A program made the translations under genes and the position numbers. A DNA stretch of 41,646 nucleotides from Burkholderiales bacterium (GTDB lineage: Bacteria; Pseudomonadota; Gammaproteobacteria; Burkholderiales; Burkholderiaceae_C), in assembly GCA_016185015.1 (NCBI GenBank), contig JACPOI010000029.1, positions 1 through 41,646 on the forward strand, given 5' to 3'. The notes below the pieces were generated by a model. The model was not told the DNA's origin, did not search any database, and saw only the letters and a list, made by a program, of their open reading frames with translations. Each line of letters begins with the position of its first letter. Within the stretch, counting starts at the first letter, position 1. Positions 529 through 30,069 of this stretch are shown in pieces.

Positions 529-625
529 TGTTGCCCCCACGTTCGCCCACTGCGTGTGGCTCTCTGCCCCCGGGGGCGTGTTTGGCAAAACCCCAAGTCC
601 ACACCTTGGGGCGGCCCGGCAGTGA
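529..625 (-). repeat. Long dispersed element, copy 1 (diverged)
   Basis: This is a minus-orientation copy of the roughly 74-bp element described at 23444. It starts GTTGCCCCCACG and ends GGGGCGGCCCGGC. The centre contains a CCCCCGGGGG palindrome and about 15 extra bases. It sits between the convergent ends of the truncated gene and the LysR gene, where its hairpin could act in transcript termination (inference). Confidence 0.7.
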
Positions 626-21467: not shown

Positions 21468-22720
21468 GCGCTCTGGGCCAAACCCTGTCGGGCTGGTTCG
21501 CTGGCCGCTCGGCCAAGGCCGGCGGCGCGCTGCCGGTGCGCCTGGGCGGCCACGGTTCGTTTGCCGCCACCAACGCGGTGCCGGAAGTGCGCGGCTTTGA
21601 CCAGCCGCTGGCGTGGGTCGTTGTGGCCCTGCTGCTGTGGGGGCTGGTGATGGTGTATTCGGCGTCGATCGCGATGCCGGACAACCCGCGCTTTGCCAAG
21701 TACACCCACGCCTACTTCCTGGTGCGCCATGCCATGTGGCTGGTCATCGCCTTTGTCGGCGCGTTGATGGCCTTCCAGGTGCCGATTGCCACGTGGGAGA
21801 AATACGCGCCCTGGTTGTTCGTGATCTCGCTGGTGTTGCTGATCGCGGTGCTGATCCCCGGCGTGGGCAAGGTGGTGTACGGCGCGCGGCGCTGGATTTC
21901 GCTGGGGCCGCTGAGTTTTCAGCCGTCGGAGCTGGCCAAGTTTGCCGTGCTGCTGTATGCCGCGGACTACATGGTGCGCAAGATGGAGGTGAAGGAGCGC
22001 TTCTTTCGCGCCGTCATGCCGATGGCGGGGGCCGTGGCGGTGATCGGCCTGCTGCTGCTGGCCGAACCGGACATGGGCGGCTTCATGGTGATCGCGGTGA
22101 TTGCCATGGGCATTCTGTTCCTGGGTGGCGTCAATGCCCGCATGTTCTTCCTGATCGCCGCCGTGCTGCTGATCGCATTCGGTCTGATGATTGCGCTCTC
22201 CGAGTGGCGGCGTGAGCGTATCTTTGCCTACCTCAATCCCTGGGACGAAAAATACGCACTGGGCAAGGGCTACCAGCTGTCGCACTCGCTGATCGCCATC
22301 GGGCGCGGTGAGATTTTTGGTGTCGGACTGGGCGGCAGCGTCGAGAAGTTGCACTGGCTGCCCGAGGCGCATACCGACTTCCTGCTGGCCGTGATCGGCG
22401 AGGAGTTCGGCCTGGTCGGCGTGGTCGTGGTGATTGGCCTGTTCCTGTGGCTGACCCGGCGCATCATGCACATCGGCCGCCAGGCGATTGCGCTGGACCG
22501 CGTCTTTGCCGGCCTGGTGGCGCAGGGCGTGGGCATCTGGATGGGCTTCCAGTCCTTCATCAACATGGGTGTGAACCTGGGTGCCCTGCCGACCAAGGGC
22601 CTGACGTTGCCGCTGATGAGCTACGGCGGCTCGGCCATCCTGATCAACCTGATGGCGATTGCTGTGGTGCTGCGGATCGACTACGAGAACAGACAGTTGA
22701 TGCATGGGGGGCGGGTATGA
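21464..22720 (+). CDS. ftsW: Septal peptidoglycan glycosyltransferase FtsW
   Basis: The protein has 418 residues and a GTG start that overlaps the murD stop (GTGA). It is a SEDS-family polytopic membrane protein with about ten transmembrane helices after a cytoplasmic N-terminus of about 50 residues. Landmarks are the first helix with [47 protein letters not shown], the large periplasmic loop [22 protein letters not shown], and [20 protein letters not shown]. It polymerises lipid II at the septum with FtsI. A second SEDS protein, RodA, is at 40202. The two are distinguished by context and by closer resemblance to each subfamily. Confidence 0.96.
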
Positions 22721-23871
22721 GCCAACAGCCCAAATGTGCATTGATCATGGCCGGCGGCACCGGCGGCCATATCTTCCCGGGTCTGGCCGTGGCCCAGGCG
22801 CTGCGTGACAAGGGCTGGCGCGTGCACTGGCTGGGCGCGCCCAACAGCATGGAAAGCCGCCTCGTGCCACCCAAGGGCTTTGCGCTGGAGACGGTGGACT
22901 TCTCCGGCGTGCGCGGCAAGGGCCTGCGCACCCTGCTGGCGCTGCCGCTGCGCCTGGGCCGCGCGCTGCTGCAAAGCCGCCAGGTGCTGCGCCGCGTGCG
23001 CCCCGACGTGCTGGTGGGCCTGGGCGGCTACATCACGCTGCCGGGGGGCGTCATGGGCGCGCTGATGGGCAAGCCGCTGGTGCTGCACGAGCAGAACTCC
23101 GTGGCCGGCATGGCCAACCGCGTGCTGGCCAAACTGGCGCGCCGCGTCTTCACCGCCTTCCCGCGGGTGTTGGCCAAGGGCCAGTGGGTCGGCAACCCGT
23201 TGCGCGCCGAGTTCCTGCAACAGGCCTCGCCCGAGCAGCGCTTTGCCGGCCGCAGCGGCCCCCTGCGCCTGCTGGTCGTGGGTGGCAGCCTGGGTGCCCG
23301 CGCGCTGAACACCATCGTGCCGCAGGCGCTGGCGCTGAGTCCCTCCGACCAACGGCCCGTGGTCACACACCAGAGTGGCGAGAAACAAATCGACGAGTTG
23401 CGCGCCAACTATGCGGCCGCCGGAATCGCGGTGAACTTGAGCGTCGCCGGGCCGTCCCAAGACGCGAAGGCCCCCTCGGGGGGCAGCGCAGTACGCGAAG
23501 CGACAAGCGTGGGGGTCACTGTCACGCCATTCATCGACAACACGGCCCAGGCCTTTGCCGAGGCTGACCTGGTGGTCTGCCGCGCCGGTGCCAGCACCGT
23601 GACCGAGATCGCCGCCGTCGGCGCGCCGGCGCTGTTCGTGCCCTTCCCGTCGGCGGTGGACGACCACCAGACCCACAACGCCCGCTTCCTGGTCGACCAG
23701 GGTGGCGGCTGGCTCGTGCCCCAGGCCGAGCTGACACCCGGCCATTTGGCTGAAATGCTACAAAAAACGGAGCGCTCTACGCTGCTGGCACGAGGGCTGG
23801 CGGCCCAAAAGCTGAGGCAAGCTCAGGCCACCGAGGCCGTGGTGGCCGCCTGCGAGGAGCTGTGCGCATGA
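22717..23871 (+). CDS. murG: Lipid II synthase MurG, with in-frame repeat insertion
   Basis: The protein has 384 residues, starting at the ATG that overlaps the ftsW stop. It is a GT-B glycosyltransferase that adds GlcNAc to lipid I at the inner membrane face. The N-domain has [16 protein letters not shown] and [13 protein letters not shown]. The C-domain has [23 protein letters not shown] and the donor-binding [21 protein letters not shown] with [11 protein letters not shown]. Residues about 243-267 ([14 protein letters not shown], then [11 protein letters not shown]) are encoded by the long dispersed element. They fall in the loop between YAAAG and VTPFIDN, where other MurG proteins have only a few residues. 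The C-terminal helix region ([15 protein letters not shown]) overlaps a short element. All catalytic motifs remain, so the protein should be active with an enlarged surface loop. Confidence 0.94.
23444..23517 (+). repeat. Long dispersed element, copy 2 (inside murG)
   Basis: This plus-orientation copy of about 74 bp begins TCGCCGGGCCGTCCCAA. It has a central GGCCCCCTCGGGGGGC hairpin and ends AAGCGTGGGGGTC. It is read in frame as [15 protein letters not shown] within MurG. Because conserved MurG motifs lie on both sides, this copy must be translated. Confidence 0.92.
23757..23806 (+). repeat. Short dispersed element, copy b (murG 3' part)
   Basis: The element reads GCTACAAAAAACGGAGCGC, then TCTACGCTGCTGGCACGAGG, then GCTGGCGGCCC. 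It resembles the other short-element copies, and its left part is the reverse complement of the left part of copy a, reflecting the palindromic nature of the unit. It encodes [16 protein letters not shown] near the MurG C-terminus. Confidence 0.55.
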
Positions 23872-25369: not shown

Positions 25370-26400
25370 CGGATAAATTGAGTGCCGCCGGGCCGTCCCA
25401 AGGCGCGAAGGCCCCCTTGGGGGGCAGCGCAGTACACGCAGTGACAAGCGTGGGGGCGACATTTGGCAAAGTTGCGGTGCTGATGGGCGGAACCTCGGCC
25501 GAGCGCGAGGTGTCGCTCATGTCCGGCGGCGGCGTGCTCAAGGCGCTGCTGTCCAAGGGTGTGGACGCCCATGCCTTCGACCCGGCCGAGCGCGCGATGG
25601 ACGAGCTCAAGCGCGACGGCTTTGCCCGCTGCTTCATCGCGCTGCACGGCCGCCATGGCGAGGACGGCACGGTGCAGGGTGCGCTGGAGCTGCTGGGCAT
25701 TCCCTACACCGGCTCCGGCGTCATGGCGTCCGCCATTTCGATGGACAAGGTCATGACCAAGCGCATCTGGCTGCATGAGGGCATCCCCACGCCGCGCTAC
25801 CAGCTGCTGCGCCGCGGCGCGTTCGACCGCCAGCAGGTCATCCAGGTGCCCGATGTACTGGGCCTGCCCATCATCGTCAAGCCGGCCTGCGAGGGCTCCT
25901 CCATTGGCGTGACCAAGGTGACCGGTTACTCCGGCATGGTGGCCGCGGTGGAGGCCGCCAGCCAGATGCCCGACGACATCCTGTGCGAGGCCTGCATCGA
26001 GGGCGACGAGGTGACCTGCCCGGTGCTGGGCGAGGGCGACAGTGCCCACGCGCTGCCGCTGATCCGCATCGTGGCGCCGGAAGGCAACTACGACTACCAG
26101 AACAAGTACTTCACGGATGTGACCCAGTACATCGTGCCGGCCGGCCTGCCCGCCGGCGAGGAAGAGGCCATCCAGGCCCTGGTGGTCAAGGCCTACCGCG
26201 TGCTGGGTTGCCGCGGCTGGGGCCGCGTGGACGTGATGATAGACCGCATCACCCGCTTGCCCTACCTGCTGGAGATCAACACCTCGCCCGGCATGACCGG
26301 GCACTCGCTGGTGCCCATGTCGGCCAAGGCCGCCGGCATCAGCTACGAAGACCTGTGCGTGCGCCTGCTGGAAGACGCCGCGCTGGATGGAGGACGCTGA
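25366..26400 (+). CDS. ddl: D-alanine--D-alanine ligase, N-terminus from a repeat
   Basis: The protein has 344 residues from the ATG at 25366, which overlaps the murC stop. It is an ATP-grasp enzyme that makes D-Ala-D-Ala for MurF. Conserved sequence starts at residue 33 ([20 protein letters not shown]). Later motifs are [59 protein letters not shown] and [18 protein letters not shown]. Residues 7-31 ([16 protein letters not shown], then VHAVTSVGA) are encoded by the long dispersed element, so the enzyme carries an extra tail. A GTG at 25450 could start a normal-length form but has no ribosome-binding site, and the ATGA coupling favours the long form. Confidence 0.95.
25384..25457 (+). repeat. 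Long dispersed element, copy 3 (5' end of ddl)
   Basis: This is a plus-orientation copy: GCCGCCGGGCCGTCCCAAGG, a central GGCCCCCTTGGGGGGC hairpin, and an ending AAGCGTGGGGGC. It is translated in the same frame as the murG copy, giving [16 protein letters not shown]. Confidence 0.92.
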
Positions 26401-26402
26401 GG

Positions 26403-26495
26403 ATGAACATGAACGCCGCCGGGCCGTCCCAAGGCGTGAGGGCCCCCTCGGGGGGCAGCGCAGCATACGCAGTAGCAAGCGTGGGGGCTCTATGA
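26403..26495 (+). other. Repeat-encoded 30-codon leader ORF before ftsQ
   Basis: The ORF begins at an ATG three bases after the ddl stop and is preceded by GCTGAGG. It encodes MNMNAAGPSQGVRAPSGGSA and ten more residues. Its TGA (26493-26495) overlaps the ftsQ ATG (26492-26494). The reading frame of the element is the same as in MurG and Ddl. It could keep ribosomes moving from ddl into ftsQ by translational coupling. That the peptide is made is an inference. Confidence 0.4.
26415..26488 (+). repeat. Long dispersed element, copy 4 (ddl-ftsQ gap)
   Basis: This plus-orientation copy fills nearly all of the 91-bp gap between ddl and ftsQ. Its terminal GTGGGGGC lies three bases before the ftsQ ATG and overlaps the place where a ribosome-binding site should be. 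The element therefore occupies the ftsQ initiation region. Confidence 0.92.
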
Positions 26496-28541: not shown

Positions 28542-28700
28542 ATGCGGACCAACACCACAATGAGCGCCGCCGGGCCGTCCCAAGGCGCGAAGGCCCCCTC
28601 GGGGGGCAGCGCAGCACGCGCAGCGGCAAGCGTGGGGGCGCGTGCCAGCCCCCATTGGCGATGGCGATGTATCGACCCGCCGTCACGGGTGGGTCCTTAA
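28542..28700 (+). other. Possible 52-codon ORF through the ftsA-ftsZ repeat
   Basis: An ORF from the ATG at 28542 to the TAA at 28698 reads [20 protein letters not shown] and continues through the element in its usual open frame. It begins three bases after the ftsA stop, mirroring the leader ORF before ftsQ. It ends 56 bp before ftsZ. There is no strong ribosome-binding site, and expression is doubtful. Confidence 0.25.
28566..28639 (+). repeat. Long dispersed element, copy 5 (ftsA-ftsZ gap)
   Basis: This is a plus-orientation copy: GCCGCCGGGCCGTCCCAAGG, a GGCCCCCTCGGGGGGC hairpin and AAGCGTGGGGGCG. Downstream, 28690-28756 is unusually AT-rich and probably holds a ftsZ promoter, though I could not fix its boxes. 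Confidence 0.92.
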
Positions 28701-29987: not shown

Positions 29988-30069
29988 GTTGCCCCCACGG
30001 TCGCCCATTGCATGTGGCTCCCTGCCCCCCACGGGGGCCGCAGTCGCCTTGGGGCGGCCCGGCGGCGAC
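29988..30069 (-). repeat. Long dispersed element, copy 6 (ftsZ-lpxC gap)
   Basis: This minus-orientation copy starts one base after the ftsZ stop: GTTGCCCCCACGG, then CCTGCCCCCCACGGGGGCC, then GGGGCGGCCCGGCGGC. It occupies most of the 95-bp ftsZ-lpxC gap and ends 12 bp before the lpxC GTG. Its central hairpin could attenuate or stabilise the ftsZ transcript (inference). Confidence 0.88.

Follow-up and report, generated by a model that had tools for sequence, protein, structure and literature searches.

The murG gene on a contig assigned to the Burkholderiales contains, in frame, a copy of a dispersed element of about 80 bp. The insert is best explained, with a probability of about 0.85, as a non-autonomous mobile repeat that is selected as a three-hairpin fold and tolerated in a loop of MurG. 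According to this explanation, the selected unit would be a nucleic acid fold of three hairpins, and copies would land widely, some of them within genes and others at the 5' end of an operon gene. A copy within a gene would survive only if it kept the frame, contained no stop codon and encoded a short, little-charged peptide placed in a loop or at a terminus. The window, meaning the whole stretch of 41,646 nucleotides that was analysed, is an entire contig (C26).

The murG insert and its copies

The murG coding sequence that hosts the insert (384 aa) occupies positions 22717..23871 of the forward strand, with the stop codon following 23868. Its product scored 318.6 bits against TIGR01133 (cut-off 250.25), with residues 1-377 matched. 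A BRE-like element copy of 78 nt, read in its +0 frame, was identified at 23438..23515 of the forward strand using nhmmer, and the match spans model positions 1-78. Compared with insert-free MurG, the window MurG has a net gain of 28 codons (84 nt) between NYAAAG and TPFID. This exceeds the 78-nt copy because a few flanking codons differ too; in the codon alignment the window has 33 codons where non-carriers have five. The preliminary description, a reading of the sequence that preceded this analysis, had proposed a repeat element in frame within MurG, and the open frame, the TIGR01133 score and the repeat matches elsewhere bear this out. Its placement at 23444..23517, with 74 bp and about 25 residues, was close and is replaced by the limits and net gain given above.

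Alignment with a solved MurG structure (chain 3s2u_A) covers residues 8-235 and 264-382 of the window MurG, which places the insert between residues 233 and 234 of that chain. Together with the length variability of the site, this alignment gap suggests that the insert fills a loop before the strand leading to FIDNTAQAF. Since the element is in frame, has conserved MurG on both sides and contains no stop codon, it would be translated as about 28 extra residues unless bypassed. The conserved flanks had been taken as proof of translation; they are present, and they make translation in vivo probable rather than proven.

The insert is real and not a matter of chance, because the repeat recurs in the window and in the assembly. 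Four strong and two weak matches were found in the window. Besides the murG copy, the strong profile matches, all on the forward strand, are a copy at 25379..25456, in frame just after the ddl start (the match to the top Ddl model begins at residue 32); a copy at 26410..26487 in the gap separating ddl from ftsQ, where it probably belongs to the 5' leader of the latter gene, whose product scored under the FtsQ cut-off; and a copy at 28561..28637 between genes that we take, from sequence and gene order, to be ftsA and ftsZ. Two diverged copies lie on the reverse strand at 29993..30068 (41 bits with nhmmer) and 534..624 (33 bits). No Rfam family reached its gathering score within the window.

A search of the window's own assembly generated 18 matches at E<=0.001. 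The single-contig genomes G018 and G264 contain 32 matches at E<=0.01 and 29 matches at E<=0.001, respectively. Across 60 genomes, own included, the repeat was matched in 31, all of the window's family, and no match came from the 24 genomes that belong to other families within the order. Six plasmid records matched at E<=1e-4, from Variovorax (2), Burkholderia, Paraburkholderia, Rhodoferax and Azoarcus, while the phage records searched gave no match at the same threshold.

Copies are 78-84 nt long and the model has 78 nt. Most full copies begin with TGAGCG and end with GTGGGGGC; these ends are not inverted repeats of each other, and no terminal inverted repeat was found. Four tandem copies in L223 (2996-3325) repeat every 84 nt exactly, a length divisible by three. 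Two tandem copies also lead in frame into MurG at L054 (9005-9166), where they form or precede the N-terminus, and at L061 (2-133), a locus that starts inside the first copy. For the analyses below, 176 profile hits were reduced to 162 copies by leaving out loci L001-L009 and copies with identical flanks. Several sets of loci were drawn from the best matches listed per genome; for G018, 25/32 were fetched and seven shorter or weaker ones omitted. Many copies are related by descent, so shuffles and p-values overstate the evidence.

Host proteins and reading frame

MurG was present in 59/60 genomes searched, own included. Among the matches listed, only that of the window spans the insert; the others that reach the site stop near residue 241 and resume near residue 268, and in most relatives the two MurG pieces (approximately residues 5-241 and 268-383) abut or slightly overlap. 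Among 80 named loci, four have an insert at the same site (L054, L056, L057 and L062). A family-wide search with the MurG site matched 258/299 genomes, and three of the matches listed (best first) cross the insert, namely the window, G264 and G173. The open frame of G173 (771 aa) equals that of L062, so the two are probably the same genome. The insert residues were thus seen in six MurG genes (window, L054, L056, L057, L062 and G264). The DNA of all six is matched by the repeat profile, although the scores are low for L054 (27 bits) and L062 (21 bits), and these residues were found in no MurG that lacks the element.

The carriers share altered flanking codons at one position, with GIAV before the insert and VT[VI]T after it. 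The insert itself varies in length. It is eroded by nearly half in L062 (net 15 codons vs 28), has lost two codons in L057 and has a similar 7-codon expansion at the tip of hairpin 2 in L054, L056 and G264. Five carriers (window, L054, L056, L057 and L062) are scattered on the MurG tree and need five changes, two of which are forced by well-supported branches. The inserts are 82-91% identical in 6/7 carrier pairs computed and 76% identical between the window and L054, and the flanking windows of carrier pairs are 63-92% identical. Insert identity is thus above the expectation from simple vertical descent with neutral drift, and was counted against the best explanation. The history of the site may be one origin with recombination, repeated insertion, or one gain with losses. 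The alignment of relatives that had been proposed for dating the insertion yielded filled and empty sites, and with the carriers so scattered it did not establish a single vertical insertion.

Internal copies were also sought in other proteins. The 162 copies were classified by the codon-usage scores of their flanks, which replaced an underpowered classifier based on 50-codon windows. Both flanks were coding in one frame for 41 copies, 38 of them stop-free and three with a stop; three of the remaining copies lie at locus edges and the others between or beside genes. The 38 stop-free copies are read in the +0 (29), +2 (2), -0 (3) and -1 (4) frames. Pfam was run on 30/38 of these frames, all except those of the window, L054:8959, L056, L057 and L062 (MurG), L091 and L116 (MurD), and L180, a near twin of L179. 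Domain matches lay on both sides of or across the element in 19 frames and on one side in seven; four (L170, L224, L226 and L164) had none. The 19 hosts, whose gene names are our interpretation of the Pfam domains, are RecJ, PGM/PMM, UvrA (three), PurL, MurD (five), biotin carboxylase, an RND pump, PheS, acyl-CoA dehydrogenase, a CobB/CobQ-like protein, GlnD, PEP carboxylase and GloB.

Filled and empty sites are found in other hosts as well. An alignment of 73 MurD proteins identified one loop filled in L072, L091, L092 and L116, in the +0 frame, and in L102 in the opposite orientation. Among 25 genus members with a PheS match, G018 and G023 carry an insert and the matches of 22 others skip the site; G007 PheS lacks the insert in a nucleotide alignment of 16 loci. 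The single-contig genome G264 has 7/29 copies within recognisable proteins: MurG, identified by orthology, and by Pfam UvrA, a RadA-like protein, SpoT/Rel twice, a PF01636 protein and a P-type ATPase. Its SpoT/Rel-like gene (L294, L298) holds two copies in opposite orientations. Ten G264 frames were submitted to Pfam, and six proved internal, two had no family (L289 and L290) and two were C-terminal in ABC proteins. MurG, which had been singled out as the host, is confirmed as one, yet it is not a special host, and the unit of interest is the element. The preliminary call for a genome search with a count of in-frame copies is addressed by the 18 assembly matches and by these in-frame copies in many proteins across relatives.

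The choice of frame was compared with what open frames allow. Among 104 full-length non-internal copies, 99 are stop-free in +0, 97 in -0, 94 in -2, 91 in -1, 84 in +2 and 61 in +1. Open frames alone predict 19% of internal copies in +0, and 29/38 were observed (p about 2e-14); at the gene level the figure is 13/19 (p about 3e-6), or 16/24 with G264 added. These p-values are overstated by shared ancestry of copies and by one-sided Pfam cases in the gene-level lists. Charge is lowest in the peptides of the +0 and -1 frames, whereas those of the other four frames contain 4 to 9 Arg or Lys. Most internal copies are read in one of these two low-charge frames, which points to a filter by tolerance. 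No purifying selection on the element peptide was seen: relative to the consensus, 25 coding copies show 168/33 nonsynonymous/synonymous differences and 44 others show 268/94, where 93/162 copies belong to neither group and subfamily structure may inflate the ratio of the coding copies.

Copies also occur at the 5' ends of genes. An N-terminal element extension of MurG was identified in 15/113 rows, at least two of which are one gene, and a genome may stand in both sets that make up the rows. The usual ATG lies upstream of the element in MurG of L078, L091, L087, L127, L062, L055, L070 and L109 and overlaps the TGA of the preceding gene. Because this ATG precedes the element, translation from it would run through the element. 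The sequences suggest that MurG, Ddl, HisI, IspH, MiaA and PyrR have been extended at the N-terminus by the element, with a predicted start codon for those other than MurG. NCBIfam models were applied to 10/42 candidate N-terminal frames, several of the 42 looking spurious by eye. Seven scored over the cut-off (HisI, heptosyltransferase I, IspH, FPP synthase, MiaA, MogA and PyrR), and L178 (rubredoxin/reductase-like), L222 (LysR-like) and L168 (AmiC-like) scored under it.

Additional sequence of another kind, roughly 75-100 nt long, precedes murG in L108, L110, L095, L111, L087 and L271 (720-820). In some of these it ends with a second GGGGGGCGG...ATGA-like junction and looks duplicated or otherwise inserted.

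Fold, movement and alternative explanations

A fold of three hairpins with four helices was drawn by eye from 30 aligned copies. On the forward strand of the murG copy, hairpin 1 (23441..23465) has a GCGTC/GACGC stem and an inner GGG/CCC stem, hairpin 2 (23470..23484) pairs GCCCCC with GGGGGC, and hairpin 3 (23491..23504) has the form GTaCGC-GAA-GCGAC. Hairpins 1 and 3 contain covarying pairs. Hairpin 2 is almost invariant (98.3% of cells paired) and lacks covariation support because its helix, the third of the four, hardly varies. In the 30 copies, 97.4% of cells are paired and 8/19 pairs have double-sided changes, which 0/500 shuffles reach. The 124 copies outside the proposal set, many of them kin of the 30, are 96.1% paired and have 167 double-change cells vs 31 in shuffles (0/300). 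The fold is thus backed by strong covariation, also in copies outside the proposal set. Pairing is alike in 27 internal +0 copies (97.4%) and 118 others (96.3%). RNAalifold proposes another partner for the 5' arm of hairpin 2, namely the 3' end, and four single copies folded no better than their own shuffles (z -0.73 to 0.43); single-copy MFE folding was uninformative. The V and D of the window MurG copy, where A and G are usual, correspond to opposite sides of a single compensated U-A pair, so the nucleic acid fold explains these residues without the peptide.

The element presumably moves as DNA. No clear target-site duplication was found at the PheS, MurD and MurG sites, whose empty counterparts are diverged, and at PheS the filled and empty sites show a further difference of about 8 nt at their 3' end. 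One possible mover is a resident RAYT-like Y1 transposase, acting on the repeat as on a REP. The repeat is rich in hairpins, a Y1_Tnp gene was found in 24/25 genus members searched (own included), and the remaining member, G014, has neither the gene nor a detected repeat. However, 30 Y1_Tnp loci (22 from the genus, 98.7 kb in all) contained no copy at E<=10, and G016, G019 and G022 have the gene with no repeat detected. The transposase was rejected as mover on the 0/30 loci, and we regard this source of mobility as improbable. The gene, mostly of about 240 aa, is single-copy in most genus members searched, with none of the present repeats nearby (e.g. L139-L145, L147-L150, L152-L159).

Assembly contamination is 4.58%, and a second dcw cluster on contig C17 (L051, C17:486000-504500), in which the repeat profile found no copy, is 73-84% identical to the window over eight aligned pieces. 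The window MurG groups with L062, L054 and L055 on the tree, apart from the C17 copy, and the contig was probably co-binned from another Rhodoferax-like species. MurG had been called essential, which holds for the species owning the contig and not for the assembly as binned, with its second dcw cluster. The doubt extends to the binning alone. The chance that the insertion itself is an assembly or binning artefact is negligible, since independent assemblies (L054, L056, L057, L062) and the single-contig G264 have the same site filled, which also rules out the misassembly that the preliminary description had named as a danger. The element could instead be skipped by the ribosome or excised from the RNA, leaving a normal protein; hairpin-rich mobile inserts in genes of some yeast mitochondria are bypassed. 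This is very unlikely here, given that 38/41 copies flanked by one coding frame are stop-free. By eye, of the three with a stop, one resembles a normal gene junction and two resemble wrong-strand frame calls, and nothing among them requires bypass.

A stronger role for the peptide would be domestication, in which protein selection keeps a functional loop that contacts the membrane or a partner. In most carrier pairs, much of the MurG DNA around the insert is less conserved than the insert, which is still in frame in six genomes. Against this, the insert has shrunk in L062 and L057 and grown in L054, L056 and G264, the close relatives L066 and L063 manage without it, and coding copies are relatively more, not less, nonsynonymous (with the caveat on subfamilies given above). 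We hold domestication to be distinctly unlikely and prefer tolerance to benefit. The origin of the filled MurG sites is more evenly balanced. There is about an even chance that they stem from repeated insertions of a close subfamily, or from recombination of murG segments between species, and not from one vertically inherited insertion. At least two of the five tree changes are forced, insert identity is high for its surroundings in most pairs, and one MurD loop was filled in four genomes in +0 and in another in the opposite orientation; the common flanking codons and the shared expansion in L054, L056 and G264 nevertheless point to one segment origin. The mobile, tolerated three-hairpin repeat, which we regard as selfish, is the reading we retain, and we count against it that no mover and no clear target duplication were found, that carriers are scattered, and the result of single-copy folding.

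Comparison with known repeats

Rickettsia is the best-known setting for in-frame repeats within conserved proteins, and there genome decay offers a ready excuse. Here such repeats occur in betaproteobacteria from the environment, where they have entered proteins of repair, translation and the cell wall in either orientation, with filled and empty sites among relatives. One might speculate, tentatively, that the element is shaped for protein invasion. The sequence that carries its fold would, in one frame of each orientation, encode a nearly neutral linker, and the element would colonise the coding DNA of compact genomes, repeatedly donating linkers and N-terminal extensions to housekeeping proteins (UvrA, PheS, SpoT/Rel, RadA-like, MurG, MurD) of free-living bacteria. 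If so, nature has set up in these lineages an experiment on how loops tolerate insertions and how protein segments are born. The in-frame copies make it directly testable how new segments come to be accepted by proteins and whether readability evolves in hairpin elements. For annotation, a repeat can be the source of MSAAGPSQG-type N-terminal extensions and of unusual loops in proteins of Comamonadaceae.

MITEs have terminal inverted repeats and target-site duplications; in the window element no terminal inverted repeat was found and, by comparison with diverged empty sites, no clear duplication. REP/BIME sequences with their RAYTs are, like the window element, short hairpin repeats. REPs measure 20-40 bp in the available part of one account (PMC3733652); the window element is longer, and its copies do not flank the RAYT-like gene (0/30 loci). 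ERIC/RU-1, YPAL/RU-2 and the Correia 107-bp element are small non-autonomous repeats with open frames fused to genes, and most have terminal inverted repeats and target-site duplications, according to an excerpt of PMC2229807. They are likened to the window element by description, and their hosts and ends are different.

A search of open PMC papers for the name of the element returned only PMC3110155 (BMC Genomics, 2011), and matching on description (size, hosts and tandem copies), the element is probably the Beta-proteobacterial repeat element (BRE). As far as the available text of that paper goes, full-length BREs are 75-91 bp in Bordetella, also occur in Rhodoferax, Polaromonas, Acidovorax, Delftia and Azoarcus, form tandem copies and are usually intergenic, with some overlapping gene ends and some wholly within coding sequences. 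The window element is likewise a dispersed betaproteobacterial repeat, with a 78-nt model, matches in 31/60 genomes and six plasmid records, and tandem copies in L223 and at the MurG N-terminus of L054. The same portion of the BRE account describes neither a fold nor a reading frame, and it names no translated peptide and does not list the proteins invaded.

In the part of PMC2229807 available, the Rickettsia palindromic element (RPE) measures 105-146 bp, forms long stem-loops and has terminal inverted repeats. There it is described as fused in frame into conserved protein genes, with 19 reading frames named, and as also intergenic, and an RPE-bearing Gmk stays active with altered substrate affinity. 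By description, the window element differs in size (78-84 nt), in its three successive hairpins and missing terminal inverted repeat, and in its betaproteobacterial hosts. The parallel with RPE drawn in the preliminary description therefore fails as membership, on size, fold and host, and stands as an analogy between hairpin repeats in conserved proteins. Repeats within betaproteobacterial coding sequences were thus already noted in 2011 (BRE), and in-frame repeat fusions are already known in RPE, ERIC, YPAL and Correia elements; like RPE, the window element lies in frame within conserved protein genes.
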